This document shows, piece after piece, positions 2,067 to 35,020 of a DNA stretch of 64,000 bases (position 1 is the stretch's first letter; every line of letters starts with the position of its first letter). The stretch is taken from contig LGRX02035290.1 in the NCBI GenBank assembly GCA_001247695.2, forward strand, positions 1 through 64,000, given 5' to 3'. Made by a program: the position numbers and the translations under genes. Source of the stretch: Cymbomonas tetramitiformis (taxonomy: Eukaryota; Chlorophyta; Pyramimonadophyceae; Pyramimonadales; Pyramimonadaceae). The notes under the pieces were generated by a model, which was not told the origin of the DNA, did not search any database, and saw nothing but the letters and a program-made list of their open reading frames with translations.

Positions 2067-2336
2067 CCAAGAATTTCTATCTTACTGAATCGATCGATCC
2101 TCGATTTCAGCGCAAATGACACCAGGATATCTTAAAATCATATCCTTGATCTGAACAGACCGAATCAAAAAGCGACAGCGCATGTCATTTTTGATTAAAA
2201 TTGACATCGATATTCGACATGTCATTTTTAGCCGCCAGAAATGACTTTTATTATTGTGCTAAAGTTACATCACTTTTTCAAAGTTCTTTCACACACACCC
2301 CTTTCACAGTTGACAGCCAATTTCTCTCATTTCGCA
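2067..2336. promoter_or_regulatory. Shared divergent promoter region
   Basis: These 270 bp separate the start of the minus-strand gene (2066) from the start chosen for the plus-strand gene (2337). The sequence is AT-rich, with two closely related segments around TCATTTTTGATTAAAATTGACAT and a CCAATTTCTCTCATTTCGCA leader just before the plus-strand ATG. No definite TATA box is assigned. A bidirectional promoter is inferred from geometry only. Confidence 0.4.
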
Positions 2337-6455: not shown

Positions 6456-6726
6456 AATAGTAGGATTTGTCGACCGCCCTGACTGATAGTATCAGTCATG
6501 CCTCGACGGTATAGGGTGAAAAGTACTCTACTCGTAAACATTTGAATAAAGAATGATACATGTATGCATATTTCGGTGTTTTCATTGTACGCATACTGCA
6601 CTTTTCTACCGTGTTGCCTTTATGTATCCCTATTTCGCGCATAAATATCACTAAACCCTGATTTTTTTGAAATATATATAAATCCAAAAATGACATATGA
6701 TAATATCATTTTCATCGAATAGTGTG

Positions 6727-9029: not shown

Positions 9030-9268
9030 AGACGAATTACAATCGCACTTGTACGTGCGGTATATGCATTCAGGAACAGTGTATGATATATTTTCCGTCG
9101 ATATTCGCAGCCCTGACGAAAGGCAGACGCAATTAAGCGCGTTTTACATCGTTGTCTTCAGAATTCTTGTAGGAACTCGCGGAAAGGCCTCGCGGAGAAG
9201 TCGTGTGCCGATAATTGTACACCCGAAGTTGCAGTCGGCACAAACAGGTCGCGTCTAACGCAACCACG

Positions 9269-9277
9269 CTGATACCA
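9269..9277 (-). other. Primer binding site (tRNA-iMet type) of LTR retrotransposon
   Basis: On the minus strand the sequence reads TGGTATCAG, the first nine bases of the widely used TGGTATCAGAGC site complementary to initiator tRNA-Met. It starts two bases after an LTR-type terminus ending ...CCCCCGAACA at 9280. This fixes the element's direction (minus) and its 5' LTR end. Confidence 0.7.
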
Positions 9278-9279
9278 GT

Positions 9280-9453
9280 TGTTCGGGGGTGCTCTCTAAG
9301 AGCTTCTAAGACTACTGTGCTTACACAATGCAGGGAACCTAGTTCAATCCTACAAAGAGATATATATTGCTGTAAGCATGATACATATATGTGAATCGGA
9401 TCTTTCTTTAATGTCGGGGTTACAACAGCCAGGTGTGGCTGTTCACAGTAACA
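9280..9453 (-). mobile_element. Probable 5' LTR (outer limit uncertain)
   Basis: The inner end at 9280 (minus-strand ...AACA) abuts the primer binding site. A minus-strand TGTTAC at 9453 would give a 174-bp LTR with TGTT...AACA ends and an internal TATATAT (9360-9366) as a possible promoter. No second copy was found in the window, so the outer boundary is a guess. The LTR could be longer, reaching towards 9860. Confidence 0.4.
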
Positions 9454-9862
9454 AATTCAAAACTGATTCATTCAGCCTGCTCGGCTGCTTTATGCCATGG
9501 TTTCCGATCTCGAACTTTCGAACATAACTCGATGTCGACTCCTGTCAGGTCCCATCATGCTTCATGAGAACTCGATCTGTCACATCATAGAATCTGCCGA
9601 CTAGCCCAGTTATATCATCACTATATTCCGAGCCACTCCATATCACTCTGAATAATTATAACTGTGCTGACTCGGCAATATTGGAGGTCTACCAGCTTTC
9701 CCTCCAATTTCTCTGACTGCTGGTTTTCCCACCAAAACTCACTTTCGGGTCAGGCATTTCTGTCAGTCATTTCTGTCAGACCCTCTTGTCATCTGGTCAC
9801 ATAAATTATGCCTGTCACTGGTGACTGTCATAGTACCCGTCACTCGTAGCTCTGACGCGCCG
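9454..9862. other. Non-coding stretch between LTR and next minus-strand ORF
   Basis: AT-rich sequence with repeated CTGTCAGTCATTTCTGTCAG / CTGTCACTGGTGACTGTCA words near 9750-9840, several of them short inverted repeats. It may be the 5' part of a longer LTR. No gene is seen. Confidence 0.3.
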
Positions 9863-10578
9863 TCATTCTGTCTCGTGACTTACCCTAGCACAGTATGACT
9901 CAATGTCATTTGGATGGGGAGGGTCTTGAGTGGGCCATGGGCAAAGAGAGGAAGGAAGAACCTTGTCTCTCTCATTAATAGTTTCTTCCCAGATATCAGG
10001 ACTAACTCCGGTGTATTCTAATCTCTTTTTTGTGATTTTGGACTTAGGGAGAACATTTAAAAACCATTTGGCAATCTTTCTTTGTGTGGGCCTCCAATCA
10101 AATGCTGGTTTGGTGTCATTAGGTGCACTGTCTATGGCTATAATGACAACATCCGAATCATCATTCTTATAGCATCCACCACCTGGGAGAACATAGGGGG
10201 CATCACCCGTCCAATAGCCATGTGGGATGAATGGAATGGTGTTGTGCGGGAATCTGAAAACAAGTTTAAAGCCTTTATCAAACCACCTCTTTTGGTTTTT
10301 AGGAGACAACGGTAAGATCCATGTGTCGCAAACACATGCATATCATGGGCAATGATAACATCATTCTCAAGTACTGCATCAGTGAATACACTCCTGCCCG
10401 AAATCATATACTCACAGTTGATATAGCAAACATGAGCACTGGTCAGCAGCCCGCTGTATACGATAAGCACCAAAAACTTTTTAAAATCTTCGGAACTCAC
10501 AACATTATACAAAGCTCTAACATGCAAGCCCAGATTTCCAACATGAAAAAGATATGAAGAACCAACAAAATAAGCCAC
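9863..10578 (-). pseudogene. Unrecognised mobile-element protein, split by a frameshift
   Basis: Two overlapping minus-strand frames make one protein-like reading. 10578 to ~10315 contains V-I-I-A-H-D-M-H-V-F-A-T. A one-base shift near 10310 leads to L-S-P-K-N-Q-K-R-W-F-D-K-G-F-K, F-I-P-H-G-Y-W-T-G and I-A-I-D-S-A-P-N-D-T, ending at 9863. Strand alternation and composition look genuinely coding. I do not recognise a fold. It follows the methyltransferase-like ORF at 11287-11958 on the same strand and may have been a second accessory protein of the same element. Confidence 0.4.
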
Positions 10579-11250
10579 AAATAAGAATATATCGCAAATA
10601 TGTTAACCAAAATGCACTTCTGTTTTAGCAGTCCGAAATCTGTTCAGAATTCCAACGGGCACTTCACAGGTTGCGAAAGCAAAGCAATAATGAGTCCACT
10701 GCCCATTTCGACAGTGACCAGGTATATGTACCACCTGGTTCACCTATGCATCTGCCATCTACCTATTTATCATGTAACCTTTATCTACCAATAGGATTGC
10801 AGAACAGCTGCACAGATTGTCCAATTTGAACATATAACATTCCTGAGCTGCCACCTCAGTGACAGCGAAGAGAATCTGAATTCTACATCTCGATTAAATA
10901 TCCTGTCAAGCTCCATGACAAATATCTATCTCTGTCACCATCGCGCAGGTCATCACGCGCGAGCTCGGCAATGTGTCATCAGCTGTGCAAACCGGTGACT
11001 GTCCCACGAGGAACCAATGTTTGTTACAGCTGTCGCAAACACATGCATATCATGGGCAATGATAACATCATTATCAAGTACTGCATCAGTGAATACACTC
11101 CTGCCCGAAATCATATACTCACAGTTGATATAGCAAACATGAGCACTGGTCAGCAGCCCGCTTTATACGATAAGCACCAAAAACTTTTTAAATCTTCGGA
11201 ACTCACAACATTATACAAAGCTCTAACATGCAAACCCAGATTTCCAACAT
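10320..11250. repeat. Direct duplication of ~220 bp, copies 712 bp apart
   Basis: The segment starting TGTCGCAAACACATGCATAT occurs at 10324-10545 and again at 11034-11250 with only a few differences. The flanks of the two copies are unrelated. The left copy is part of the ORF at 9863-10578. The right copy lies just downstream (minus sense) of the methyltransferase-like ORF. Sequence between the copies (10550-11030) has no coding evidence. Confidence 0.85.
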
Positions 11251-11286
11251 CCCCCATCTGTAGCTACTGCTTGCAGTGGCACAGAC

Positions 11287-11958
11287 TCAAATGTGGATTT
11301 GCTCAGCATATAGCGTCGTAACACCATCGTCCTTGAACTTTCCCAAGCTGAAAGTAAACATACCAATTCCATCTTCTTCACCTCCTCGTAGCATACGCGC
11401 TCGTACCAGAGGATTCTTAAATACCAAGATCCACATGCATCTTCGCCCAACTGGACCATGTTCCAGATGACTTATCACATGCAAGCGGCCCGCACGGCTC
11501 AATCGTCTAAAATACGCAGCCCTGCTCTCTGTCATGTCTGTCAAGTAGTAAGAGGGCACATGCACACATGCCACCAAGCGGCTTGCCATCACGGCCAATG
11601 GTATTGCTAAGTCCGACACCGCAAACCACGGAGATGTGATAATGGCATCACACACACCATACTTCTCCTTCCAAATACGATAATTTCCTGGTTGTAATGC
11701 ATCACGTGCCTCTGCCCAGCCTAACTGAAGGTTCCAGTCATTGTTCATGACCTTCAAGTGAGGCCAGTGGTCCATCATGACCTCGCCTATGACGCCCACA
11801 CCTGCCCAGGGGTCCCATACACTTTTGATCGACTTCCAGTCAACCTCTGATGCCAAGCGTTTCACCTCTGTGGGAACAGTGATGTTCAGCTCCAGGCCCC
11901 AGTCCATCTGGCTACTATCCAAATTAACAGTCCTTTCATAAGGACTAAGAGTCAACAA
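11287..11958 (-). CDS. Methyltransferase-like protein of a retrotransposon, 223 aa
   Basis: Uninterrupted ORF. Residues 48-54 (W-D-P-W-A-G-V-G) match a SAM-binding motif I of amino-methylating DNA methyltransferases. ~50 residues later a strand ends in C-D-A-I-I-T-S-P-W-F (residues 103-112), which corresponds to catalytic motif IV (D/N/S-P-P-Y/F/W) with W for the second P. The order I then IV is the alpha/zeta type, unlike the gene at 2337. It lies downstream, on the same strand, of a Ty3-type integrase, so it may be an accessory ORF near the 3' end of that element. Activity is unproven and the recognition domain is not evident. Confidence 0.55.
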   Translation of the reverse strand: MLTLSPYERTVNLDSSQMDWGLELNITVPTEVKRLASEVDWKSIKSVWDPWAGVGVIGEVMMDHWPHLKVMNNDWNLQLGWAEARDALQPGNYRIWKEKYGVCDAIITSPWFAVSDLAIPLAVMASRLVACVHVPSYYLTDMTESRAAYFRRLSRAGRLHVISHLEHGPVGRRCMWILVFKNPLVRARMLRGGEEDGIGMFTFSLGKFKDDGVTTLYAEQIHI

Positions 11959-12562
11959 TCAATATTGGGCATCGTTTGTGGCCAATGGGTCCCAAAGTGT
12001 GTTTCCGCATCATATTTATGGGTCAAAGCAATGTTAAGAGATATTGGTACAAGCCTCAAGTGAATATAGTGTTACTGTTTAATGCGACGCTTTGGGGGTG
12101 TATTTCTGCGGTTTTCGATGAAAAAATCCCAGTCCTTTCACAAGGACTAAGCTATTTGCTGTGCTACCTAATTCCTTAAAGGTCCCATGAAAATTCGGAG
12201 GCCTATGTTGTCAAGTTCTCGAGCTGCTCTTTCTGTAGTGTCTTGTCAAAATTCTGATCCGAGGTCATCTCGGCCTTCAAAATATCGGTTGAAGTAGCAT
12301 AAATGACGAATAAATTATATTCCGGCGAATGACAAGAAAACGTGGAGAAAAAAACGCGTACCCCCATGGAAAACCTCGACTGTGGCGGTCAACATGCATG
12401 CCACTTGACATTGTAGGACGGAGCCTACCAAACTTCAAGTCCTGACGGAATTTCCGCCCGGGGGGCAAGCATGTCGGAGCTCGTTAAGGCATCGGAAAAA
12501 ATTATTGAAAAGTCGGTCCTTGTGAAAGGACTGTCGGCAACTACAGTCCTGTCACAAGGACT
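11929..12562. repeat. Four dispersed 18-bp hairpin repeats
   Basis: AGTCCTTTCATAAGGACT lies at 11929-11946, AGTCCTTTCACAAGGACT at 12131-12148, the reverse form at 12515-12532 and AGTCCTGTCACAAGGACT at 12545-12562. Each is a 7-bp stem with a 4-base loop. They surround the 5' end of the methyltransferase-like ORF and the gap before the integrase. Confidence 0.8.
12180..12310. repeat. Dispersed ~120-bp repeat, copy 1
   Basis: The sequence around GGAGGCCTATGTTGTCAAG, CTCGAGCTGCTCTTTCTG and ATCGGTTGAAGTAGCAT recurs at 36600-36720 and 36780-36915. Copies differ at roughly one base in ten by eye. The function is unknown; it is probably a non-autonomous element. Confidence 0.75.
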
Positions 12563-12590
12563 GCCGGATAGTAGCCACATCGCACTAGCC

Positions 12591-14416
12591 TCACGAACCT
12601 GAGACAGCTGGTGATGCGTGTCGTAGAGGCTCCCCCTCTTTGACAATCCTGTACGGCCCCACATCTGCGGGTAATAGCCGCATGCCTTCCTGCAAATCTG
12701 CAGACAACTGCCCTTCCTTCATCCCAAGCTTGTCCTGCAGCTCGCTGGACTCGGCATTCACCTCAGCCAGAGCTGCCCCAATCCTAGTGCCTGAGCACTT
12801 AGGACATTGCCACTCTCCGCTTGGTACCTGCGTCAGCGCTGGCTGGAAGCACCAAATGTGGTAACCTCGATTGCAGGTGTCACAGAGTAACATCTCTGCT
12901 TCACCATCCTCCCTGCAACACACCTCACATGCATGATGCTTGCCAGGGATCGCAGCACTACAGTCGTACTGGTCCTTAACTTGAAGGTGACATGGCGCGA
13001 TGTTCTGCACCGTGCTCTTCTCCCTCAGTTTGGTGGCATCCTCCAACGTCACCACTCCATCGCGTTGTATCTTCACCAGCTTGAGGATAGCAGGTTTGGT
13101 AGCTACCTCCATTCCTGTGCGAGGCTTCTGTCTGATATGTACGAAGTCCCCAACCTTAAACTGGTGTGGCTTCGGTCTATGACCACCACCACGCCTTCCT
13201 TCATACAATAAAGTATCTCGATGCTGTGCAATCTCCAGACTGCAACCTGCGCTTATCATGAGTCTGCGCACCAATGCTGCCCTGCGCAACAAGTCCTTGA
13301 CACGCGAGTCCTTCTCGCTGACCACTTCCTCTTCGAAGTTCAGACTGGGTGCTTTTCTCAAATCAGGTGGCCCCACTGCCTCCTGTGCGAATAGCAACGT
13401 GAAAGGTGCTACTCCGGTTGACTCCTGTCTCGCCGCATTGTAGCTCAGGACCAACGACCATAATAGCTCGTCCCATTCATAGTCCAACCCTTTCTCCAGG
13501 GCAAATTCTTGAAGCAAAATTTTATCGTGCGTACGACCCTCTCCGGGTGCCTTCGGGTGAATCAGGTGATATTACACGTCGGTCTATCAAACAGTCCCGA
13601 CACAGCTGCTCGAACTCACCTTCGAATTCTTTGCCTCCATCCACCAGACACTCTGCCGGCGCACCAAAGACAGACAAAACACGATTGCGGAATGCCGCCG
13701 CAATGGTGCTAGCCTCCTTGTCCAGGATGGGCACGCACACGATGAACCTGGTGTAGTGCTCAGTCATGATAAGCACCCGGCTATTACCAGACCTAGTCAC
13801 TCTTCTGGTCGGCCACGCCAAATCCAGTGACCACCGATACATGAAAGATTTTAATTCCAGGCAGGGGGGTCAATACTGCCTCCTCTCTGGCATAATGGGT
13901 CTTCACCCGCTGGCAGGTCTCGCATTGAGTCACCACTGCCTCCACGTCCTTCTTGAGGTCAGCCCACCAATGTCGCTGCCACAGAAGATTCTTTGTCCGT
14001 CTGATTCCCCAATGACCTGTTCGGGCGTGGTATTCGCGCACCAATGCTAAATGGTCCTCTGGCTTCGGTATCCTCAACTCCTTGCCTAGAGGGGTAATCA
14101 TGTAGATCTCGTCAGTTGCCTCATCCCATCGGTGACGCTCTGCACGCCTCTTTACCCGACGAGCCTCAGTCTCCGGCAGCTCAATATTGCCCTTGGACCT
14201 CAGCCACCTAAGGCACCAATCATCAGAATAAATGTCTCGATGCTGCTCTCTGTCAGCATGCTGTTCGGCGACACTAGCCATCAGCTCTGTGAGTCTGACG
14301 GTGGATTCGAGTCTGGGCAACCTCATCGCCCCTTTCCCGCCTGGCGGACTCCATGCCGGAATCGCAACGCTGTGCTGCGAGGTCTCACCTTGCTTGACGA
14401 AATGACTCCCATGCAC
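12591..14416 (-). pseudogene. Ty3-type integrase with C-terminal PHD finger (frameshifted)
   Basis: 14416-13793 carries an integrase zinc-binding motif H130-x4-H135...C165-x2-C168. After a +1 shift near 13850, 13842-13522 carries the core, with D in S-L-D-L-A-W-P-T and D in L-V-D-G-G-K-E-F. After a second shift near 13540, 13517-12591 carries the end of the core (S-Y-N-A-A-R-Q-E-S-T-G), a basic segment, and a C4HC3 PHD finger at residues ~197-241 (C-E-V-C, L-C-D-T-C, Y-H-I-W-C, C-P-K-C). A PHD finger here replaces the chromodomain often found after such integrases and could read histone marks to target integration. Two frameshifts and no reverse transcriptase make it non-functional. Confidence 0.8.
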
Positions 14417-14424
14417 TCCTACAA

Positions 14425-14500
14425 AGAATTCCCTAAAATTCCCTAAAATTTCCCTAAAATTTTCCTAAAATTTTCCTAAAATTTTCCTAAATATGACATT
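14425..14500. repeat. Short AT-rich tandem repeat (TTCCCTAAAA-like)
   Basis: About seven imperfect copies of TTTCCTAAAA occur. They resemble CCCTAAA telomere-type words but the unit is 10-11 bp and irregular, so they are treated as low-complexity DNA. Confidence 0.7.
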
Positions 14501-23122: not shown

Positions 23123-23340
23123 TGTTCACATGTTGGTGGCTACTATGCACAAATACGTAAGACGCACGCCGTATGATAGAATAATATGTTCACATGTTGG
23201 TGGCTACTATGCACAAATACGTAAGGCGCACGCCGTATGATATAATAATATGATTGCTCACATGTAGGTGGCTACTATTCACAAATACGTAAGACGCGCG
23301 CCGTATCATATAGTAATATGTTCACATGTTGGTGAGGAGG
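23123..23340. repeat. ~65-bp tandem repeat, 4 copies
   Basis: TGTTCACATGTTGGTGGC recurs at 23123, 23187, ~23251 and 23319, each followed by TACTATGCACAAATACGTAA and CGCCGTATGATA. Confidence 0.9.
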
Positions 23341-23530
23341 AAGGGCGTCGGACAGCAAGCCTCTCTGTCCGTTGGGTTTGCCCACCAAGAATCTCACCCT
23401 GTCGGGTGCCAGTCGATCATAACCCAACCGGAAGTTGCTGCAGAGGGCGCTGTACTCGTACCTGGCCACGAACACCGTCAAAGACGACTGGTTGAGTAGC
23501 TGCCGCACTTGATCAGAGCTTAGGGTAGGC

Positions 23531-23625
23531 TATTTAATTTAGAATATTTTTTCATAATTTTAGAATAACCCATTTTCATCGTTAATTTAGAATAAGTTTT
23601 CTTGATGTCACCCGGCTATGACCGG
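23531..23625 (+). repeat. Left terminal inverted repeat of the Mutator-like unit
   Basis: It contains three spaced TTAGAATAA-type words, then TTTTCATCGTTAATTTAGAA, TTTTCTTGATGTCA and GGCTATGACCGGT. The ATG within GGCTATGACC (23618) opens the frame of the transposase gene. Confidence 0.85.
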
Positions 23626-23710
23626 TGCATGCATCCATGACGTTGTACCTGTTGAGCTATCGCCATGTCATGCGAAGAGTTGTCGCGTAGCCAAACGAGA
23701 GGAAAGTAAC

Positions 23711-26350
23711 ATGGCCGAGCCCGACGGCTTTGAGTTCACACGCCCGGGCAAAAATGTGGACGATATATATCCTTCGGAGGGAGAAGAAGAGGAAGAAGAG
23801 GACTTCCTCGTTGCACCTAAGGGGAAGGGGAAGCGTACCCGTGTTCCCATAGTGTGGAGTACGGTCTTGAACGGTGTATCCTATGTAGAGTGCCAAGAGA
23901 TGATGGCAACCTTGAGCCCTGAGGGTGTGACCATGGCTAACAAGCAATATAAGTCGAAAAAAACCTCTGCCGTGACTCAAAACTCCAAGTGTGCTTTAAA
24001 CTTTACTCACGGTTGTGGAGTTCACTATAAAATTGTCAAGGGGACGACCTCAGGCCCTACTGTTGCATGCAACTTGTACTCCCGTGGTACACACGGCCAT
24101 ACTAATTTCATAGGAAAGGGTATGTCGAATACTGTAAAGGACAAGTGTAAGGAGGCGATCCACGAAAAGCTTCCGCCTAAAAAAGCCATTTTTAAGAAGC
24201 TTAGTACCACAGTCACCACAGCCATGGAAGCCGATGATGACCTTGATTACAAGGTCATAAAAAACTTTGTGTACAACAATCGCAAACAAATCTTGGGGCT
24301 TAAAACCATAAAGACTTGCGGTCAGTTCATGGAGGTTTGCCAGACCTCCAACTTGTTGGCCATCCCCGTGACCGATCGCAAAACGGCGGGGACGCTTTGC
24401 ATGTTTGAAGGACAAGTACTCAATCCGAGCGGCTTCGAAACCGTGGAACATTACGCCGAGAATTCCGCGAACACCCTGCCTCCTATTCCTTTCGAAGCCC
24501 AAGCAACCCAAGATGAGCTTAATACTTGGAAGGTGGCGGGTTGGAATGAAGACTTTTCCGTTTATGAACGGAACCTTCAAGCACATTTCAACTCAATTCT
24601 TGCTTGCGAGTCTGCTGAGTACTTCGTGCATATCTTAGAGAACATGCTTGTCGTCCAAGGGTGGAGTACGCGTTCGAAAAGGTTTTACAAAGGGAAGTTG
24701 AACTTGCGTGCCCTGTACAAGAACTACTGTACACCGAACTCGTCAACGATTATGTCGCAGCGCAGAAACGCAAAAGGTGGTGCGTGATTTACACCACTTG
24801 GGGGAAACTCGAGGTACTTCTCGCAAAGGATCACCGCTCACGCGACGACACGTACAAGACGAACTGGCAAGGCTTACGTCTTGAATGCAACGGGTCTTCC
24901 TACTTGGATAAGCGTTTTCGTCTCGGGGCGCTCGCCATCAAATCGCACGAGGACGCCTATGCTTCGCAAATAGTGGACTTTTGCTTGATCGCGGCTATGC
25001 AACTTGGTTTCCAGAAAGTGTGGCAACCTCGTTATCATACTTTGGATCACTCCCTCGCTTTCTTCAACGCTAACGCCAAGCTTCCGGAAACCATCACGCA
25101 CGTTCTAGAGCATTTGAAGTTACCAACGGACCACTGTACACTTGTCGCGGAAGAGATTAAGCAAGGGATATGTTGGTCGCATTGCATGATGAAGCTTAAC
25201 GAGAAGACCGCGCTATTCAACGACGCTCATAACGTTAACGGCTTCAAGCATGGCGTTACGGAAATACACAACATCACCATCGTTGGTGCTCGTGATAGTG
25301 CATTCAAGCTCTTCATCGAACTATACAAGCGTGATGAAGAGTATATTTGCAACTGGTTCGTGGAGACTTGGTGGGGCAAGTGGGGTGGGTGGGTTCTCGG
25401 CTTCATGCCAGAAGGGATCCAATCTACGCAGAACAGTCCCGAGTGCGTGAATAGACACGTGAAAGACGAGATGACAATGCGTAAGCAACTCCAACTCGAG
25501 GTATTCCATCCTTCTGCGCTAAAATACATGCACGAGGAGACGATATACGACGGGCAACACCCAATACCTACGACTCCAGTTATCACACAAGCTATTTGGC
25601 GGGAGGCGCTACTTATGATTGACAACAACATGCTCGAGCTTATGACGCGCACGACTGGCGTCTTGGGGGTTACAGACCGTCCTTCATATGTCGTTCCCTC
25701 CCTTAAGACCTTCGATAAGTTGAGTGGTTCCACTATCGCGGATAAAAGGAAATAGATTGCTCCCCTTGTGGTAAAGTTCCTCGCCCTTATGCGCGACCCT
25801 GAACACCCTCCAGCGACGGTTGTCACCTTCGAGCAGTTCATGAACACCTACAAGTCTTTTGTGATCTTACGACCTTTGGACGCTAATAAGGTCACCGAAT
25901 ATGGGCACCACTGGTGTATGTGCCCTATCTACGCGGAGAGCGTCACGTGTGCATGCTGTATTGCTGTTGGCTTATTCAAAGGGAAGTTTAAGGCGCCTCT
26001 TGAAAAACATCTCGACATAATTGGCCGACACCCACAAGTGGGACGCCCGAGAAATTGCCCGAGAGATTGGCGCCTTGAAAAGGCAACCCCTTGGGAAGAT
26101 CACCGCGAAACTGAAACGGGAAGCATCCAAGCGAGCGCGCGAGATGGCAGAGCTAGACATGGAAGCAAGATGCTCGCAGCAAGTTCCTAAAAGTTTGTCG
26201 TGCGAACTGTGCGGTGAAGAAGACAACGGAGATGAAATGCTGTTATGCGACGTGTGCAATAAGGGCTTCCATATTTTTTGCTTGCGTCCAAGCCTAAGCA
26301 AGATCCCAGCAGGAACATGGTTGTGCGGAATATGCGTAGCTAAGGAATAG
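23711..26350 (+). pseudogene. MULE transposase with SWIM zinc finger and C-terminal PHD finger (interrupted)
   Basis: The frame opens at 23618 in the TIR; 23711 (M-A-E-P) is the likelier start. Segment 1 (to ~24660) has an acidic N-terminus and a FAR1-like Cys/His region (C-A-L-N-F-T-H-G-C-G-V-H-Y). After a frameshift near 24600-24690, segment 2 (to 25755) has the MULE DDE core: R-D-D-T-Y-K-T-N-W-Q-G, then T-L-D-H-S-L-A-F-F-N-A-N-A-K-L-P. A TAG at 25753-25755 interrupts, and the same frame continues with a SWIM finger (W-C-M-C-P-I-Y...C-A-C-C) and an AT-hook-like G-R-P-R. A final shift near 26050 leads to a PHD finger (C-E-L-C, L-C-D-V-C, F-H-I-F-C, C-G-I-C) and stop at 26350. Three lesions suggest an inactive copy unless some are introns. 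Confidence 0.8.
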
Positions 26351-26467
26351 ACAATTTTCTTCAGGTGTACATAAGTGTATGTAATAGCAAGTATTAATAT
26401 TTTGTGTACACACTATTATCAAGTATATTTTTGAATCAATCTAGCAACCTCTTTACTTTGCTTTACT

Positions 26468-26755
26468 TTATAAAATAAAATCCCACTTGGCCCAGGAGGT
26501 GAAGTAAATATCCGTGGTAGCATGTGGTAGCCAAATGTTCGTGAAGCAACTTTTGCAAGTGAGCCGGTCAGGTTGTGGCAAGGGAATATCGGCTAGGTCC
26601 CTACCCACTACCGCCCACCTTGCAAGGAACCGCTCGTGGTCGGCGTATCCTTCAAAATTGTTGGCGAAAGCTTGTTGCAGGTCTTGCAAGTCCCGGTTGA
26701 ACCGAGCGCGGAGCCACGCTTTCCGTTCGCAGTGGTCGCAACATGGTTGGGGCAT
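26468..26755 (-). CDS. Small Cys-rich (zinc-ribbon-like) protein, 95 aa
   Basis: It begins M-P-Q-P-C-C-D-H-C and ends near C-K-S-C-F, giving a CxxC...CxxC pair that could bind zinc around a helical middle. An in-frame upstream ATG at 26863 would add a 36-residue leader that is less convincing. It lies between the transposase and gene 26964 on the opposite strand. Function is unknown; it could be a DNA-binding accessory of the transposon. Confidence 0.5.
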   Translation of the reverse strand: MPQPCCDHCERKAWLRARFNRDLQDLQQAFANNFEGYADHERFLARWAVVGRDLADIPLPQPDRLTCKSCFTNIWLPHATTDIYFTSWAKWDFIL

Positions 26756-27357
26756 ACTTGTTTCGTACTTTAACAAAGTTTCCTTGGGTCGATAAGTGAT
26801 AGTAAGATGCGAACACAAGGGAGTATGTATGCGAACAACGTGATATGTTATTATATAGTACACGCTATACGATATCTTATACCATATACGTTATAGACGC
26901 TATTGTATTTGACTAAACCTATTTGACTAAGCATAAACCTAGTCTTAGCCCGCAAATAAAAAAATGAACAGAGTAATAAATAGGGACGAGGACTATCAAT
27001 CTTCCAGAGGCTACCTACCCGCCCCATACAATTGCCCAGCGCTTTGGCAAAAGCACGTCGTGGTCCGCGGGGAAGACGAGAACCCTACGAAGGATCCCCA
27101 CTATGGACTCACTCGCCCCAACAAGCGGTGCGAGTTGCATAAGGTCCTCATATGCATGGTTGAGTATGGGGAGGCTGGCGTTTGGCCATTAGAGTTTCCT
27201 TTCGATTGGTTCCCAATGCTCGACCACTACGCTGTCGACAACCGCAAGCAGGGTGCGTGGGTGTGGTGCGAGGAGATCGCAACCACTCGCATTGCTTTCC
27301 ACGACCATGGAAACGACGACGATGGAAGATTCATCTCCCGTGTGTCGTACAAGTTGT

Positions 27358-28632
27358 CAGAGTGGAGACTTACGGCGTAAATACGCCGTAAATACGCCGT
27401 AGTGCACTGTCGAGGAGCTCGTATTTTCCCCCTGAGCCAAATTTGCGTAAATACGGTAAGTCATACCGTATTTTCTCAAATCTGTCATCCGCCTTCGTTC
27501 GTTTCACTTTTTGAGGCATATTTTTATGTTTCTTCGTTTGGCAGATGGGACACACCTTGCGTGGGCAAAGTTTACTATAAGTTTTTCACTCTGGTGGCTG
27601 CTTTTGACACCATACCTGGGCTCACTGCAGTACGTAGGACTTCTCTTAAGTTGCTGGCTAAGCAGCGCTGGGAGTTTGCGCATTCTGACTTACACTACTC
27701 CGCCGGCTTTTGTGTGGATCCTGAGTATTGGGATAGTGACTATGGTCAAGAAGCAAACCACGAAGTGATGACCGGCTTTCGCAACAGTGTCAAACAGTTA
27801 ACTCTCAGTTCAGAAGAAAGCGCACGAGTGATGGACCAGTGGATCCGGTTTCGTATGGCAGAGGGTTGTTTCGCAGACGAGCATTGTCTCGTGCAAGCAA
27901 AAATACTTCCAGGATACAAGTGGTGGCTGGCTTGGGGAAGTATGACCCCAGACCTGCAGAGGTTTGCTATCAGGGTTCTGTTTCAAGTTGCATGCTCCAG
28001 CTCGTGCGAACGTATCAACAGCGAGGCGGATCACATTAAGTCCAAGAAGCGCAATAGGATGAAACATTCCACCCATGAGCGTGAGATTTATGTCCATCAT
28101 AACTTGCAAGTGCTTGACAAGTTAGAAAATTTAGAGTATGAGGAGCCGGTTATCCTATGGGATGCTGACATTAACTCAGAGGAGAATACATCCGATGAGA
28201 AGGAAGCAGCGAAGGACAGTGATTAATAATATATGTTGTGAAGAATGTTATCTGTTTGGAATAATGTTATCTGCTGTGAAGAATGTTATCTGTCTTGAAT
28301 AATAATTTCTGCTATCAATAATGAAATCTGTCTGGAATAATTCTTTTTTCCCCTTTCTCTTTTCCCTTCTCTCTTGGTTATTACATCTCACCGCGTTATT
28401 ACATCTCACCGCATTATTACATCTCACCGCCTCCAGGGCTCCGCGCCTTTCTCTTCTCTGCGCCCCCCCTGTTTTCAGTTCTTCGCTCGGATTTTCACCT
28501 TTTCTCTCGCGTCCTATCACCGTAAACCGCCGTAATATCCTGCGTTACGCCGTAAATACGCCGTATATACGCAATACGGCGATTTTGCCTCGCCGTAACC
28601 GTATTCACCGTAAGCCGTAAGTCTCCACTCTG
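27358..28632. mobile_element. 1.27-kb hAT element with 8-bp target duplication
   Basis: The ends are CAGAGTGGAGACTTACGGC and its inverse. The target duplication CAAGTTGT lies at 27350-27357 and 28633-28640, exact. Subterminal regions contain repeated CGCCGTAAATACG words. Only the 3' part of a hAT transposase remains, so it is a deletion derivative. TATTACATCTCACCGC is repeated three times at 28380-28432. Confidence 0.9.
27546..28226 (+). pseudogene. hAT transposase, C-terminal part only
   Basis: The ORF includes Q-R-W-E-F-A-H-S-D-L-H-Y-S-A-G-F, then W-W-L-A-W-G-S-M-T-P-D-L-Q-R-F-A-I-R-V-L-F-Q (written in parts: WWLAWGSM, PDLQRFAIRVL), S-S-S-C-E-R-I-N-S and a charged C-terminus. These are hallmarks of the hAT dimerisation region. 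The zinc-finger and most of the catalytic domain are missing. A TACG|gtaagt donor at ~27462 upstream suggests the original gene was spliced. Confidence 0.75.
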
Positions 28633-28933
28633 CAAGTTGTGCAGCAAGTGCGCTAAAACTTGTCAGAGGATGGCGGTGCCTCTCGAGAGGCACGAGCGCA
28701 ATGCAAGTTTGAATATTTATGAACGTTTGAACGTCGAGTTCGAGCTAATGTAGAATATAACGAATTAGCACAGACTAGTAACGATAACGAGCAAGTAAAA
28801 CAAATAATATTTGTTTGCAAAAACAAGTAATGATATGCATAAACTTGTAAGTGTAATACATGTTTTTTCACCTATTGAGCTAGTGTCCAAGCATGGCATA
28901 CACGTCTCGAAAGTACAGCATTATGTAAGCCTA

Positions 28934-30169
28934 TTATGTACGCTTTCGCTTGGCTTGTTCCTTCCCTACGGGTCCCTTCGCGGCTTTGTCTAAGGCTTTC
29001 TCAACATCGCGTGCCAAAACCTTCAGGGCTTTCTTATGCTCCTCGTCCACCGTGTTCGTGAGGTCTGTGCCCGCTAGAAAGTACTTCACGAACTCCTTCG
29101 TAACGAAGTCGAGATAACCCCAATGTAAGGCCGAGTTCACGGGGTTCAGCTGAACATCAGGGTCGTAGGAAGCCACGCCCTTCAACGCCAAGTTCGCGGA
29201 GAACACCACCCGGGGCGTGCCATCCGCATTGGCCACCCCTTGGTGTACCCCTCCCACCACCGCGCAGTCGCCCAATCCCACTTTCTCCTTTCCCCCAACG
29301 TTCCTTGCATACGCGTCGAGGGTTTCCTTCGAGAGCATGAGGGCGCGCTGCTCGTGGAACTGGACATCGCAGTTCAATTGCAATGCCCCTTGCGTCGATT
29401 GGCCTAGGAGCTCAACCGACGCATCGAAGGACGGTGTTGGTGCACAACACAACCTTGTTGGGGATGATGGGCCAAGGTAGGCCACAATGGCCAAGTGATG
29501 AGGGGGTTCGGTGAGAGGTTGGTTCAGTGGCTGGTCCAAGTGCCAAGGTTGCCACCCCGTAAGGGAGGAGAGGACCTTCCCCGATTTCTCCGCAACCAGG
29601 TTGTCGTTGATTAAAAACGCTTGGTTCTCGACGGTGTACGAGTTACGTAGGTTTTCCAATACCTGCGTCTCCACCTCGTTGACGAAGACGTTCAAGTGCT
29701 TCCGATCTTCGTCGTCGAGGAAGTTGTCGTAGAAGTCCGTCAATATTTCCCCCCCCCCGTGTTTCGCGGTTTCATGAAACACCTCTAGCTTTCCTCCGGT
29801 AAGGGTTACCATTCCGCTAGGAAGTTTGTCCCAATCCGGCACCTTGTTCAACGCTTCACGCCACATAAGCGAAGAGCGCATTTCCAGATGTTGTCGCGTG
29901 TCTTCGGGTAACGACACCACGAAGTTGTTTGCGAAGCCTATTGCTCGCGTACGATCGAAGTCGTCCAAATATTTTTCTTTGCCTCTTGCGGGTTTCTTTG
30001 ATTGTCCGCTGCATTTTGCGCAACGCAGCTCGCCTTTGCCTCTTTTTACCCGGGTGCAGCGTTTGCCCTCGTGGTCCATAGTCGACGGGTCTTGCTTGCA
30101 TTCAATGAGCTTTCCCTTCTTGTTTAACTGTCCGCATTCGCAGATCTCGGCAAGTGTTGATTGTTCCAT
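28934..30169 (-). CDS. 2-oxoglutarate/Fe(II) dioxygenase-like protein with N-terminal Cys cluster, 411 aa
   Basis: Intact ORF. Residues 10-53 form a Cys-rich module (C-E-C...C...C...C-A-K-C). The catalytic signature is complete: H210-x-D212 in W-Q-P-W-H-L-D-Q, a distal H309 in V-V-G-G-V-H-Q-G, and R320 in T-P-R-V-V-F-S-A-N. That is the Fe(II) triad plus the 2-oxoglutarate-binding Arg at the expected spacing. The tail is lysine-rich (nuclear-like). Substrate is unknown; the setting inside a DNA transposon beside a methyltransferase-like ORF makes nucleic acid or histone a plausible target. The region between 28760 and 28933 has no gene. Confidence 0.65.
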   Translation of the reverse strand: MEQSTLAEICECGQLNKKGKLIECKQDPSTMDHEGKRCTRVKRGKGELRCAKCSGQSKKPARGKEKYLDDFDRTRAIGFANNFVVSLPEDTRQHLEMRSSLMWREALNKVPDWDKLPSGMVTLTGGKLEVFHETAKHGGGEILTDFYDNFLDDEDRKHLNVFVNEVETQVLENLRNSYTVENQAFLINDNLVAEKSGKVLSSLTGWQPWHLDQPLNQPLTEPPHHLAIVAYLGPSSPTRLCCAPTPSFDASVELLGQSTQGALQLNCDVQFHEQRALMLSKETLDAYARNVGGKEKVGLGDCAVVGGVHQGVANADGTPRVVFSANLALKGVASYDPDVQLNPVNSALHWGYLDFVTKEFVKYFLAGTDLTNTVDEEHKKALKVLARDVEKALDKAAKGPVGKEQAKRKRT

Positions 30170-30177
30170 AGTCGTTA

Positions 30178-30566
30178 CGATTTACGTTCGGGTTATAATA
30201 AATTTCGACTTTCACGAAAGGAAATAAAAGCGCCACTAACTTGCATATTCACGGCCGTGAATTCCAGATTCACGGCCGTGAATTCCAGATTCACGGCCGT
30301 GAATTCCATATGTCCGAATGGAACCGAAAGCCGTTCGATTAAAATCGAACGGTTTTTTGTTCCATTCGGAAAGATTCACGGCCGTGAATCTAAAATTCAC
30401 GGCCGTGAATAACAGGGATATATGACCGACCTGTTTTCATCTCATGCCCTTCACACGGGTGCTATGTCACGCGACGGGGAGTTCGGGACGACGGCGATAA
30501 ACGTTAGATAGCGGGCTCGAGGTATGCTGTGATAGGCATAATACAATAGTAGCTTACGACGCATGG
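30178..30566. promoter_or_regulatory. Divergent control region with five 16-bp palindromes and a large hairpin
   Basis: ATTCACGGCCGTGAAT is repeated exactly at 30247, 30268, 30289 (21-bp pitch), 30374 and 30395. Between copies 3 and 4 lies a long hairpin, 30312-30370, with outer arms TCCGAATGGAAC/GTTCCATTCGGA and inner arms CCGTTCGATT/AATCGAACGG. The block separates the minus-strand dioxygenase (starts 30169) from the plus-strand ORF (starts 30567), so it could hold operators for both. The 21-bp pitch places three sites on one face of the helix. Confidence 0.7.
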
Positions 30567-31533
30567 GTGGACGAAATCTTTTATTCAATACAGTCGCCAA
30601 CACTCTCCGAGATATGCCAACCTACTGAACCCATAGGGCAAAACAATGTGAACGCGGAGGTTGCGACATGCGACGAGATTGAACCGTATGAAACAACGGA
30701 GCGCGTTGCGGACGACAATGCGAACGACAATGCAAACGACGACAACGCGAGCAAGTTGTTTCCGAAACGAAAACGGAGTGCGTTGTCAACGAGGTGTGCT
30801 CCTCTGAAAAACTTACCATTTAAAATAACGATACCAAGGGTATGTGATAAAGGCACTAGTTTTTATCCCACAATCGCACAACAATACACGCCTCTATTAG
30901 CAGTTATTGGCAATTTGTTTCACGGAAAAAAAAAATGGCGATTTTTGCTGCGGTAAGGGACCTCGCTACGTTTACAACAACCGAGTTCGGTTCAAACCGA
31001 AGACGATCTTTCTGAGCGATAAGCATCCTGCGAAAGGCATAAGACGCCTAGACTTAGAGAAAATCAAGTGGGAAGAATTCAACCCGCAAGTAGACATCAT
31101 AATATCGTCCTTGCCATATGCAAGAGGGAAGTGCGAACCTTTGTTAGCTGCGTGTCTTCAATCCAACGCCACGATCGTGTGTTTGAAGCTATTGCATTCG
31201 TTCGAACGTCCTGTGGTGGGGGATAGTAGAGCTAGTGCGTTCCAAAGGCTTGGCTTAAAGATTTTGCTACCGCCTGCAAAGTATCCGGGGTTCGATCGTA
31301 GTTTAGGAGAAGTTGAAGCCTGGTAAATTCTTTTCAACTTAGCGACAACAAAAGATTTACTAAAGAAAAGTGTCAGTGAGTTTCACAACTTGTTGTACGA
31401 AGACAGAGGATACCCGGAAAGTGCTGGGAGCGTACCTTTTATTTATTCTGGCGTAGAGCACAACGTTGCACCTTTCAAGGATCGAGGACTTATTTTGTGG
31501 GATTCGCGGAAACAGGCGGCCGGTGCTAATAAG
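30567..31533 (+). pseudogene. DNA methyltransferase-like protein of the Mutator-like unit (frameshifted)
   Basis: 30567-30940 encodes an acidic N-terminus with a K-R-K-R signal-like patch. The frame changes in a run of ten A at ~30930. It continues through ~31326 with P-Q-V-D-I-I-I-S-S-L-P-Y-A (SLPY at 31105-31119), which resembles catalytic motif IV of amino-methyltransferases, followed by K-L-L-H-S-F-E-R-P. A TAA at 31324 interrupts, but the same frame stays open to 31533. A clear SAM-binding motif I is not seen. Adenine or cytosine-N4 methylation is inferred only from motif IV and context. It could be a fusion partner of the following dioxygenase. Confidence 0.45.
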
Positions 31534-31593
31534 TGATAACCAAAGGTTGAAGGTACTACTCACGGAATTTGAAGCAACGTTGCATGCACAAAC

Positions 31594-32226
31594 GTGCAAG
31601 ATAATAGAGCGTGGCTGCGCAAACGAGGCAAAACCGCAAAAGGCAAGAAAGGAGGGAAGGAGGGTTGGAATGTTGGGTGGTGGTTTAACATGGGGAGAAC
31701 AGTGCAGCAAGAGGGGTTTGCCCCTAAGCTAGATGGAACATGTGCTTTCGGGACGCCCCACCCTTGGCACAAGAAAAAAGGTGTTTACATGGACGATCCG
31801 CTAACAAGTGCAAGCAAGCCGTATTGGAAGAAAGAACTTTACATCCTAGCAGGTGAAATCTTAGAAATAATAGACGCGGATCACAAGAGAGACGGCGATT
31901 GGTGCTTGTATGTGTCGTGCATGCTAGCCGGTAAGTGCGAAGTGAAGCGACACGAGGACAGAAAAGATGTGTCACATCAATACATAATCTTTCTTGGAAA
32001 CTACAAGAACGCGGTTTTGGAGATGGAGTCGCCCAGAGAGGATAGCAATGGCACCCTTCTGCAATTCTCTGAAAGCCATAAGGTTTTAAAGTGCGATGCG
32101 CGGTGCAAACATAGAGTAGCATCTGCAGGTTTTGAGGGAGTGCGCTATTGCGTTACTTTATACAAAATGTATGACAGGCGTCTAACCAAACCAGCCCCGG
32201 TGTATTGGCCACCACATTATATTTAA
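31594..32226 (+). CDS. TET/JBP-like 2-oxoglutarate/Fe(II) dioxygenase domain, 210 aa
   Basis: Residues 120-122 are H-E-D (HxD). A strand-turn follows (I-I-F-L-G-N-Y-K-N-A-V-L-E-M), then H173 in C-K-H-R-V and R184 in G-V-R-Y-C-V-T-L-Y-K-M. HxD...G-x-x-x-x-x-x-L...H...G-x-R-Y is the arrangement seen in TET/JBP-type nucleobase dioxygenases of algae and phages. The upstream frames at 31466-31730 overlap and may be an upstream exon or a frameshifted N-terminus, so the true start is unclear. If active it would oxidise a modified base, opposing a methyltransferase. Assignment within the dioxygenase superfamily is inference. Confidence 0.6.
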   Translation: MQDNRAWLRKRGKTAKGKKGGKEGWNVGWWFNMGRTVQQEGFAPKLDGTCAFGTPHPWHKKKGVYMDDPLTSASKPYWKKELYILAGEILEIIDADHKRDGDWCLYVSCMLAGKCEVKRHEDRKDVSHQYIIFLGNYKNAVLEMESPREDSNGTLLQFSESHKVLKCDARCKHRVASAGFEGVRYCVTLYKMYDRRLTKPAPVYWPPHYI

Positions 32227-32235
32227 TGTACAACA

Positions 32236-32601
32236 GTGGAAGGTGAGTACGCCTTTGCGAAATCAGGAGAGTCAACCATAACGTGTTTGCATAGACTCAC
32301 CCCCGTAATAACGTCTGAAGCACACCATTCGTGCCTTAAAACGTACCCCCTATTGTGCACAGTTAGTTATGAAGCACAACTTGCACATAGTTTGCCAATA
32401 GTGTTTCCACATTGCCTAATTGTAAGAAGCATAGCGCCCGCTGAGCAATGGTGGACGCTACGGTGCTCCCTAGTAGCTAATAGTGATAACCAATACAAGA
32501 ATCGAGCCATGTATGACATGTTTTTTGCCCGGTTGTATAACACCGATAAGAAAGGTTGCATAATATCGTCGAGTTGCCACCCTGCACCATGGTTTGTGTA
32601 G
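32236..32601 (+). CDS. Hypothetical 121-aa protein
   Basis: The ORF starts 10 bp after the dioxygenase stop. It has a Cys/His-rich C-terminus (S-S-S-C-H-P-A-P-W-F-V). No family is recognised. The opposite strand is also open here, so coding strand is uncertain. Confidence 0.3.
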   Translation: MEGEYAFAKSGESTITCLHRLTPVITSEAHHSCLKTYPLLCTVSYEAQLAHSLPIVFPHCLIVRSIAPAEQWWTLRCSLVANSDNQYKNRAMYDMFFARLYNTDKKGCIISSSCHPAPWFV

Positions 32602-33052
32602 TGAAACAAGGGAAACGATCCAGAAAACAAGTGTCGCTGGCACGGTGAATATCCCCAGTTCCCACGTGAAGGTATAACCCCTCCCCAAGGCATACCCTCC
32701 GTGTATTCGAGATACACATAGCGGTTATGAAAGTCCCATATAGGGTTACCGTCACTATCGTCACTCTCCCATAGGTTCAAAGTGTCTGTATACTTTAGCC
32801 GGACGCCAGTTTCGACATACTCGTTGAATACAGTGCCTTTGAAAGCGGTGGGTTGATAGTGGGGGGCCTTATTTTCAAGCGGAACACACGCCGTGAGTGC
32901 CTATTACAACGGCGCCCACCATTATCACAAGTGAGACAAACCTTCTTAAAGCTTTTCGGAGGCTTCCTCATGATGGCAATAAGCGGGAACGAGAGCGTTT
33001 GACCTGTGTGCACATTATTTGAACACGAGTCGTGAAAAGGACCACCGGTCAT
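32600..33052 (-). CDS. Terminal Cys-rich ORF opening in the right TIR
   Basis: The frame opens with ATGACCGGT inside the right inverted repeat, exactly as the transposase frame does on the left. 33052-~32900 encodes a basic C-L-T-C-D...R-R-C segment. After a shift, ~32890-32600 encodes T-A-C-V-P-L-E and later N-L-W-E-S-D-D-S-D-G-N-P-I-W-D-F-H. A candidate acceptor (ttgtaatag) sits at the frame change. No family is recognised. Confidence 0.35.
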
Positions 33053-33140
33053 AGCCGGATGACATCAAGAAAACTTATTCTAAATTAACGATGAAAACAG
33101 GTTATTCTAAAATTATGAAAACTTATTCTATATTAATTAT
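33044..33140 (-). repeat. Right terminal inverted repeat of the Mutator-like unit
   Basis: Inverse copy of 23531-23625. The two match over TTCATAATTTTAGAATAACC, TTTTCATCGTTAATTTAGAA and GTTTTCTTGATGTCA, with ~6 differences in ~95 bp. Confidence 0.85.
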
Positions 33141-33306
33141 TTTTCCCTTTCCCCGTGCCTTTCCCCATGCCAGCATCAAGTGCCCTACCCGACACGTCGC
33201 TCGGTGCTTGGCTCCCCCTTCGGTGTGGAACGGCCAGGTGCGCAGGCGCGGCAACCCGCTTCTGCAAGGTGTAGCCGTCAGCCAAATCCGACCTCATGCG
33301 CTTCAT

Positions 33307-35020
33307 TCATGAGGCCCCTTTAGACGCAATTGTCGCATGCGGTGTATCCTCCGTGACCGTATCCCCCTCGGAACCCGCGCCCCCACGGCTAGGGGCAACC
33401 GGTGCCGCGTCCTTGTCCACGAAGAGGTAGTCGTCACGGGTAACGCTCGCTCCTAACTCCACCCGGTCCGCAGTATTCACCTGCCTCAACGGGGCCGTCA
33501 CCGACACGCCCTCCTGCAAGCCCTTCGCTTTTTCCACCGCAATCTGTTGTGGCACAAACTTCCTGAGGACCTGGAACACTTGGTCGATCTTCTCATTGTC
33601 ACGGAAGTAAGCCTCCCCTCGGGCTTTATCTGTTACGCCCACGTTCAGCTTGTTCACGCGGAAGGTGTGAAACATCTCCGGGTCCGCGTTCGGCCCATCG
33701 ATTGGCCCCCCGCAATGGACAAACCACCCTTTATTCTTTATGTGCAGGATTGAGCCTACCACATACCCCCCCGAGTGACCCTGGTGAAACACCACTCCGC
33801 CGTACGAGAATTTCCCGTTCGATTTCTGGGCGTATCCCTCCTTATCACCAAAGCCGTCGCCATACACATACCGCGGCCTATAATTAATGTACATGTTGTA
33901 CTCGTGAACACGTTGCGGCAGATCCATGTCCTTCCACTGACTGGTCTTCCGCTGACGGTCACCGTACGGGCAATGCCTGTGCGGGAGTGTTCGTGGGTTG
34001 CTCCGCCGCTCCCGCTTCAACAAGGGGCGGGGGCGCCGATGCCAACGGCTCCGCAACCAAGGGCAAGGCAGGTGCCGGAGTGTCCGCGGGTTGCTCCGCC
34101 GATCCCGACGGCGCGTCCAGTACCACCCCCGCGGTCTCGGGTGCGGGCACCTCCGTGCTCGTGGGGGCGGGAGCATCCGCGGGTTGATCCGCCGCTCCCG
34201 ACGGCTCCTCTACACCCCCCTGAACGACCTCGGGTGTGGCCGCTTCAAGGGGCGGGGGAGCCGATGCCGAGAACTCCGAGAGCATGGACAAGGCAGGTGC
34301 CGGCGTGTCCGCGGGTTGCTCCGCCGATCCCGACGGCGGAGCAAGTACCACCCCCCGGCGGTCTTGGGTGCGGGCACCTCCGTGCTCGTGGGGGCGGGAG
34401 CATCCGCGGGTTGCTCCGTCGCTCCCGACGGCGCGTTCACTACCGTACTCGCGGTGTCGGGTGCGGGCACCTCCGTGCGGGGCGGGAGCATCCGCGGGTT
34501 CTTGCTCCGCCGCTCCCGACGGCTCCTCTACACCCCCCTGAACCAGGGAAGATATCTTACCCCGATTGGCCGGCCCCGGGCCGAACTGATGAGTCACCAA
34601 AATGAGGCCCGGGCCGAAGAGGGGCCGAAAGAGAAATTGCCTTGGGGCCGAACCAATTTGGCGCAAACTTCTAAAATTTTGAAGAATTTTTGCGATTTTT
34701 GCATTTTCACATACTTGAGATTAAAATTTTCGCGCCTGCGGCGGGCATTTTGTAGTGTGGGCCGGGCGGGCCGAAGGCGGGCCGAACGCAAACTTGACTT
34801 GGGGCCGTGCCAGCTCAACGGGAAGATATCGTTCCCTGCCCTGAACGACCTCGGGTGTGGCCGCTTCAACAAGGGGCGGGGGAGCCCATGCCGACGGCAC
34901 CGCAAGCAACGGCAAACTCTGCTGCAACGCGCTTTCCAGCAGCATGGCACCTTTTTTTGCCAGAGCGTCTTCCTCCGCTTGCGAGGTTGGGTATGGTAGG
35001 CCGTGCGTTTCGCCATGCAC
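33307..35020 (-). pseudogene. Pro/Ala-rich repeat protein with C-terminal globular domain, interrupted by a MITE
   Basis: It starts M-H-G-E-T-H-G-L at 35020. It enters a long low-complexity region with repeated V-E-E-P-S-G-A-A-D-Q-P-A-D-A-P-A-P blocks (~34200-34540 and earlier), then a one-base shift near 33965. It ends in a ~210-residue mixed domain (Y-N-M-Y-I-N-Y-R-P-R-Y-V-Y-G-D, S-Y-G-G-V-V-F-H-Q-G) with stop at 33307. Function is not recognised. The repeat region probably is a flexible linker. A hAT MITE lies inside the coding sequence at 34544-34838 without a stop in the relevant frame. It lies outside the 23.5-33.1 kb unit. Confidence 0.45.
34544..34838. mobile_element. 295-bp hAT-type MITE with 8-bp target duplication
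   Basis: The ends are CAGGGAAGATATCTTACC and, inverted, CAGGGAACGATATCTTCC. The duplication CCCTGAAC lies at 34536-34543 and 34839-34846, exact. Outside the element the host repeat sequence continues uninterrupted (compare the uninterrupted copy at ~34213), which confirms insertion. The interior has several GGGCCGAA words and no ORF of its own. Confidence 0.9.

Follow-up and report, generated by a model that had tools for sequence, protein, structure and literature searches.

Transposons that carry a single epigenetic enzyme are already known. In fungi, DNA transposons carry TET/JBP genes, and the dioxygenase is thought to aid their escape from methylation-based silencing; the list in the abstract of that report contains no Mutator-type lineage (PMC12730594). 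The VANDAL elements of Arabidopsis are Mutator-like elements (MULEs) with an anti-silencing factor of their own, VANC (PMC5735166, PMC10398659, PMC12730594), and the passages cited describe the VANC proteins as sequence-specific and do not call them base-modifying enzymes (PMC5735166, PMC10398659). Methyltransferases of the DNMT family ride on retrotransposons in Symbiodinium and charophytes, and Dam-like ones on DIRS elements, with no mention of TET in the main text of the report (PMC5890265). MULEs of Phytophthora carry a SET domain, an epigenetic writer, but for histone and not base methylation (PMC6446971, PMC12730594), and the Rehavkus elements of arthropods and annelids, which have one open reading frame (ORF) and a minisatellite, show a 9-bp target duplication and a PHD finger in the transposase (PMC6446971). 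Here we analysed a stretch of 64,000 nucleotides (the window; positions 1 to 64,000 of contig LGRX02035290.1) from the green alga Cymbomonas tetramitiformis, whose genome size is estimated at 850 Mb to 1.2 Gb (PMC5741210), and describe in it a Mutator-like transposon that encodes, together with a PHD-bearing transposase, a predicted amino-methyltransferase and two probable Fe(II)/2-oxoglutarate (2OG) dioxygenases.

The algal element resembles the fungal transposons in carrying a dioxygenase that may aid escape from silencing, but it has a methyltransferase in the same gene and a second, PhyH-like oxygenase, and its likeness to TET/JBP is motif-based. Like VANDAL, it is Mutator-like and, in the reading preferred below, would bring its own anti-silencing factor. 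A predicted base methyltransferase is shared with the retrotransposons, whereas those are retroelements with C5 or Dam-like enzymes, and the 9-bp duplication and the PHD finger are shared with Rehavkus, the two being set against each other by description only. No autonomous unit that combines a PHD-bearing transposase with two oxygenases and a methyltransferase was found in the open-access literature searched and, as far as that literature goes, the enzyme combination and its intron-nested arrangement are new. The copy in the window spans 23524-33149 and has the following features.

23524..23627, +, left terminal inverted repeat, starting GGTAGGC (inverted-repeat comparison, shared copy ends)
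23651..26350, +, gene of a Mutator-like transposase with a PHD finger at its C-terminus, broken here (motif strings, PHD match)
26201..26335, +, PHD finger of the transposase (Pfam PF00628, E 6.2e-13)
26468..26890, -, frame Y, small CxxC/CxxC protein, 140 amino acids (aa) here (ORF)
26949..27357, +, frame Z, predicted protein cut here by a hAT insertion (ORF)
27358..28632, +, nested hAT element, foreign to the family (22-nt inverted ends, hAT dimerisation domain)
28937..30169, -, first dioxygenase, a PhyH-like 2OG oxygenase, open, 411 aa, Cys/His-rich N-terminus (fold search, motif)
29542-29534, 29245-29243 and 29212-29210, -, its H210-x-D212, H309 and R320
30246..30411, no strand, array of the palindrome ATTCACGGCCGTGAAT, flanked by the divergent genes of the first dioxygenase and the methyltransferase
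30501..30793, +, remnant of exon 1 common to methyltransferase and second dioxygenase, about 100 N-terminal aa lost here
30794..31515, +, methyltransferase core within a GT-AG intron (GTGTGC ... AAACAG), frame broken here (motifs, profile comparison)
30940 onward and 31108-31119, +, its motif I DFCCGKG and motif IV SLPY
31516..32226, +, second dioxygenase-like exon (motif)
31951-31953, 31957-31959, 32110-32112 and 32143-32145, +, its H, D, H and R
32231..33001, -, gene X, Cys-rich protein, broken here (ORF)
33043..33149, +, right terminal inverted repeat, ending TTATTTTTCC (inverted-repeat comparison, shared copy ends)

The original prediction had inverted repeats of about 95 bp enclosing a single transposon, and this was borne out. 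The arms of the window copy (23522-23627 and 33043-33148) are 106 nt long and 90% complementary, those of two complete copies, L048 and L049, are 97 nt, and the same ends recur elsewhere in the 851.7 Mb, 25,745-contig assembly that was searched. The first 170 nt of the element gave 42 matches (40 of 1839 candidates scored); most aligned copies end at about 23524 and about 33146-33151, the right side being shorter in three (L015, L030 and L034). Perfect 9-bp target duplications were present in five of the six copies read at both ends:

L039, ATTCTTTGA
L041, TAAGAAACA
L043/L025, CTTCTTCCT
L048, CATATCTAC
L049, GTGTACAAG

Long terminal inverted repeats and a duplication of 8-11 bp, mostly 9, both mark a MULE, and the second was thus found in five of six copies. 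The sixth, the window copy, showed no duplication when both of its ends were inspected, which would suit two unrelated insertions whose ends are paired by chance; the identical ends, gene order and perfect 9-bp duplications of L041, L048 and L049 refute this for the family, and we regard it as having practically no chance of being right. L048 and L049, of about 8.8 kb, are complete copies, of the kind that the original prediction proposed to look for, and keep the gene order. All seven gene frames (transposase with PHD finger, first dioxygenase, methyltransferase, second dioxygenase-like protein, Cys-rich X, and the small frames Y and Z) are open in L049, and all except X in L048.

A search with a piece of the transposase scored 78 of 2979 candidates; 76 of the 78 were stop-free, and frames of at least 900 aa were present in 57, one of them with an internal stop. 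For the second dioxygenase, 150 of 769 candidates were scored and 129 of these were stop-free. Of the 78 transposase matches, 49 are followed downstream, on the same strand and no more than 9 kb away, by a scored second-dioxygenase match; among the other 29 are some close to the end of a contig, and some copies in which the second dioxygenase may have fallen outside the 150 scored. The element is an abundant Mutator-like transposon family. Relatives in viral contigs and phages were searched for and none was found.

The transposase, open at 916 aa in L048 and L049, has in L049 the strings D.TYKTN (418), LDHSLAFF (484), ICWSHC (526), NSPECVNRHVK (614) and CMC-x8-CAC (774), in this order. The D/D/E-type strings and the SWIM-like CxC-x8-CxC are also present in the window copy (there with a CWSHC string), and the final ligand of the SWIM-like finger is Cys, not His. 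We take these strings to be the MULE D/D/C..H/E signature plus a SWIM-like finger. No Pfam transposase model matched up to E 10, so that the protein is either too diverged for HMMER or a non-member, and the PHD finger is the sole part above the Pfam cut-off. The predicted MULE transposase with SWIM and PHD fingers is in agreement with this finger and with the order of the strings.

The methyltransferase core is open in L048 and L049. The intact form of 441 aa was found in these two copies and in 9 of the 29 loci L010-L038; the idea of a programmed frameshift in its A-run was abandoned because at least 9 of the 29 loci can be read through in a single frame. Motif IV is SLPY, not NPPY, in all seven sequences of alignment A6, from three lineages. 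No credible sequence match was found in Pfam, PHROGs, NCBIfam or PDB. When the profile of the core was compared with 283 E. coli ORFs, RsmC ranked first (66%, score 37.7), with 83 aligned columns from motif I through motif IV, and TrmN6 second (24.7; 16 columns, motif IV only). The best scores of one reversed and three shuffled control profiles were 19.1-24.4; therefore, the RsmC match is clear and that of TrmN6 marginal. PrmC, with motifs I and IV aligned, ranked 22, RsmA 51, RlmF 76 and HsdM 151. These ranks uphold the methyltransferase-like character first proposed for the SLPY ORF and support a class-I amino-methyltransferase (the NPPY class, here with SLPY). Its most likely target is adenine-N6 or cytosine-N4.

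Both of the best-ranking E. coli proteins are RNA methyltransferases, and SLPY resembles the NLPY of RsmA-type enzymes. The cassette might accordingly modify RNA, as a writer and an eraser of the N6-methyladenosine (m6A) type acting on transcripts of the element or of the host. The low ranks of RsmA and RlmF speak against this, and the E. coli set, with HsdM as its single DNA methyltransferase, is hardly able to tell RNA enzymes from DNA enzymes. We consider an action on RNA unlikely, and take DNA to be the probable substrate.

The first dioxygenase (411 aa in the window copy, 417 aa in complete copies) was found where the residues H210-x-D212, H309 and R320 had been predicted. H210, D212 and R320 are kept in at least 90% of ten sequences, fragments included, and H309 in all eight rows that cover it. 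With a weak structural model, the first 45 rows of a Foldseek search, and 50 of the 50 VIA rows among those listed, belonged to the 2OG-oxygenase superfamily. This lends some, if weak, support to the double-stranded beta-helix fold of 2OG oxygenases, and the resemblance in the model search is to PhyH-type enzymes, not to TET/JBP. By sequence, no match to Pfam PhyH was obtained up to E 10 and no credible match in Pfam, PHROGs or PDB; in hhalign against the 283 E. coli ORFs, YbiX, YbiU and AlkB ranked only 78, 74 and 120. A search for relatives (query P0013) scored 101 of 658 candidates, one 98% and the rest 66-69% identical. The two that were retrieved, L045 and L047, have no methyltransferase or second dioxygenase within their 9 kb; the first dioxygenase is therefore a member of a broader family borne by repeats. 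These two (L045 4480-5763, minus strand, and L047) lie in another abundant repeat, beside long tandem repeats.

For the second protein the original prediction held in part. The ORF and its residue spacing, given as H120-x-D122/H173/R184, were found, and no fold or family match came with them: Pfam (including the TET_JBP family), PHROGs and PDB gave no credible match, the predicted model was useless, and in hhalign against the E. coli set YbiX, YbiU and AlkB ranked only 85, 128 and 167. The residues H104, D106, H157 and R168 (numbered from 31642) are invariant in all seven sequences of alignment A7, from three lineages. Three gene models (P0003, P0004 and P0006) deviate or end ahead of some catalytic positions, which we attribute to gene-model errors or deletions. 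About 50 residues separate D from the second H in the HxD...H...R pattern, a spacing that resembles that of TET/JBP proteins. The protein is thus probably a 2OG dioxygenase, TET/JBP-like in the spacing of its motif.

A single gene seems to yield the methyltransferase and the second dioxygenase as alternative products. In L044, the junction of the NCBI gene model P0004 results when a GT donor (GTGTGC) within the methyltransferase ORF is joined to an AG acceptor (AAACAG) that precedes the second dioxygenase; five adjacent cuts yield the same peptide, one of them GT-AG. Of 32 sequences, 26 show a junction of this kind, with the frame maintained over some 30 residues; the donor is GTGTGC in 25 of them and GTGTAC in L011. 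The junction was missed at first in L013, L026, L029, L033, L039 and L046; on a second look it was found in L046, with the acceptor AGACAG, and again not in L029. The joined frame passes HxD to its end in L041, L044, L046, L048 and L049, and the frame is kept across the junction over intron lengths that range, from copy to copy, between 703 and 731 nt. If the intron is used in the cell as these signals suggest, its retention would give exon 1 plus methyltransferase, and its splicing exon 1 plus dioxygenase, on one N-terminal module, so that retention versus splicing would set the balance of the two enzymes. A methyltransferase nested in an intron in this way would be an unusual packing of two opposed enzymes in one gene.

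The copies L044 and L046 represent a diverged family, 49-51% identical to the main family in the methyltransferase, 61-64% in the second dioxygenase and 49-55% in X, with the same gene order and strand, including the antisense neighbour X, and the same splice positions. Between the families synonymous sites are nearly saturated or past saturation, the nonsynonymous rate (dN) of methyltransferase and second dioxygenase is 0.29-0.47, and its ratio to the synonymous rate (dN/dS), where computable, is 0.16 in one methyltransferase pair and 0.16-0.22 in X. The first dioxygenase gives 0.20-0.26 against L045 and L047. Within families dN/dS is 0.10-0.21 for the second dioxygenase, 0.42-0.64 for the methyltransferase and 0.42-1.39 for X; therefore, recent spread depends less clearly on the methyltransferase and X. 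The corresponding values for the first dioxygenase are 0.27 (window copy and L041) and 1.38 (L045 and L047, few changes).

These values bear on whether the enzymes are passengers, pieces of host genes captured by the MULE and without function for it. MULEs are prone to acquire host gene fragments (PMC6446971), and the methyltransferase is broken in many young copies. However, the cassette with antisense X has been kept in a family about 49-64% identical, with amino-acid change far below synonymous change and the splice positions unchanged, and every gene frame is open in L049. We consider mere capture quite improbable.

The array of the palindrome ATTCACGGCCGTGAAT probably forms a promoter region shared by the first-dioxygenase and methyltransferase genes. 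A genome-wide count gave 3134 sites with the palindrome, against 0 for the control, and the diverged cassette of L046 likewise has it upstream. The array common to the divergent genes, and the presence of a methyltransferase and oxygenases within one element, would also fit a pathway in which these enzymes work one after the other to make an unusual base in the element's DNA, for nuclease protection or as a mark for the transposase, comparable to the base hypermodification of phages (PMC12730594). The phage pathways in that source begin with C5-cytosine methylation, a signature not seen by eye in the enzyme of the element, and no glycosyltransferase family match was obtained among the element ORFs scanned. 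Such hypermodification appears rather unlikely to us.

The reading we prefer is an autonomous Mutator-like transposon that alters base marks on its own DNA to resist silencing, by an amino-methyltransferase and two probable Fe(II)/2OG dioxygenases; we hold it with about equal belief and doubt, DNA as substrate and the purpose of the enzymes being the conjectural parts. The proteins of the element would add a mark that the host takes as active or harmless and oxidise a mark used by the host for silencing, so that copies remain expressed, and the PHD finger may anchor the transposase on chromatin. N6-methyladenine (6mA) is tied to permissive chromatin in several eukaryotes (PMC12695648; Cymbomonas does not appear in its main text), and therefore an adenine mark is plausible. 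More tentatively, and with more doubt than belief, a single transposon gene could be both writer and eraser or converter of base marks, the choice being made by intron retention or splicing: a permissive mark such as 6mA would be written on the element's own DNA, the repressive mark of the host stripped or converted by the two oxygenases, and chromatin read by the PHD finger, which would amount to a full, portable write-read-erase system.

A deamination footprint of 5-methylcytosine (5mC) at CpG was sought in 27 copies, aligned at a mean identity of 98.2% and with a CpG observed/expected ratio of 0.90, and no clear one was found. Transitions were present at 7 of 214 CpG sites and at 36 of 805 other C or G sites; the per-base values were 0.0084 at CpG and 0.0064 elsewhere for C-to-T, and 0.0007 and 0.0062 for G-to-A. 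This fits an absence of 5mC, the youth of the copies, or protection. The genome has been sequenced with nanopore long reads, and the main text of the assembly paper does not mention methyltransferase, dioxygenase or Mutator (PMC10675990). With an open-frame copy available, modified bases at intact copies could be sought if the raw signal exists.

The window copy itself is a decayed member of the family. Among its large genes only the first dioxygenase is open over its full length; the frames of transposase and X are broken, and the methyltransferase lacks its N-terminus and is broken in frame. The catalytic part of the second dioxygenase is open (31573-32226), and the spliced frame meets a stop 74 residues after the start of the junction region. 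The nested hAT element is flanked by an 8-bp duplication, CAAGTTGT, at 27350-27357 and 28633-28640, and its sequence has no match in L041. The right flank of the window copy (33147-33637) shows 93.8% likeness to its counterpart in L025, where the matching stretch lies about 88 nt farther out; given this likeness and the lack of a target duplication, the window copy is perhaps a recombined one. Three tandem repeats of about 64-68 nt stand directly left of the element (23123-23334). Frame Y has 139 aa in L041 and L048 and 125 aa in L049, frame Z 173 aa in L041 and L048 and 165 aa in L049. Gene X, 252 aa in L049, had no credible match in Pfam, the only library scanned with it.

Methyltransferase-like genes ride on more than one kind of repeat in C. 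tetramitiformis, judging from their motifs and family matches. At 4926-6452 (plus strand) of the window, a DNA methylase-like protein is encoded by a repeat distinct from the MULE (Pfam N6_N4_Mtase, E 1.8e-5, 25.3 bits, slightly below the cut-off of 26.7), and the MULE copy L039 has an insert with 95% identity to 4327-6729 (methylase DNA at L039 1962-4361). Near this methylase gene, 16 copies of another perfect palindrome, GTTCATTAGCTAATGAAC, stand in arrays at 552-1312 and 2935-3404, which recalls the array of the MULE. The flank 500-13500 was considered as a second MULE and rejected, its PHD ORF adjoining an integrase ORF: at 11290-14464 (minus strand) a retroelement integrase ORF (H2C2, E 7e-17) lies next to the ORF with the PHD finger, and a 223-aa frame of the same region appears methyltransferase-like by eye (VWDPWAGVG and IITSPWF), with no Pfam match. 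Within L039, a frame at 5471-6748 (minus strand) gives matches to a Tf2-type SH3 domain, a chromodomain and a C5 cytosine methylase (Pfam E 3e-9, 4e-7 and 4e-6, respectively).

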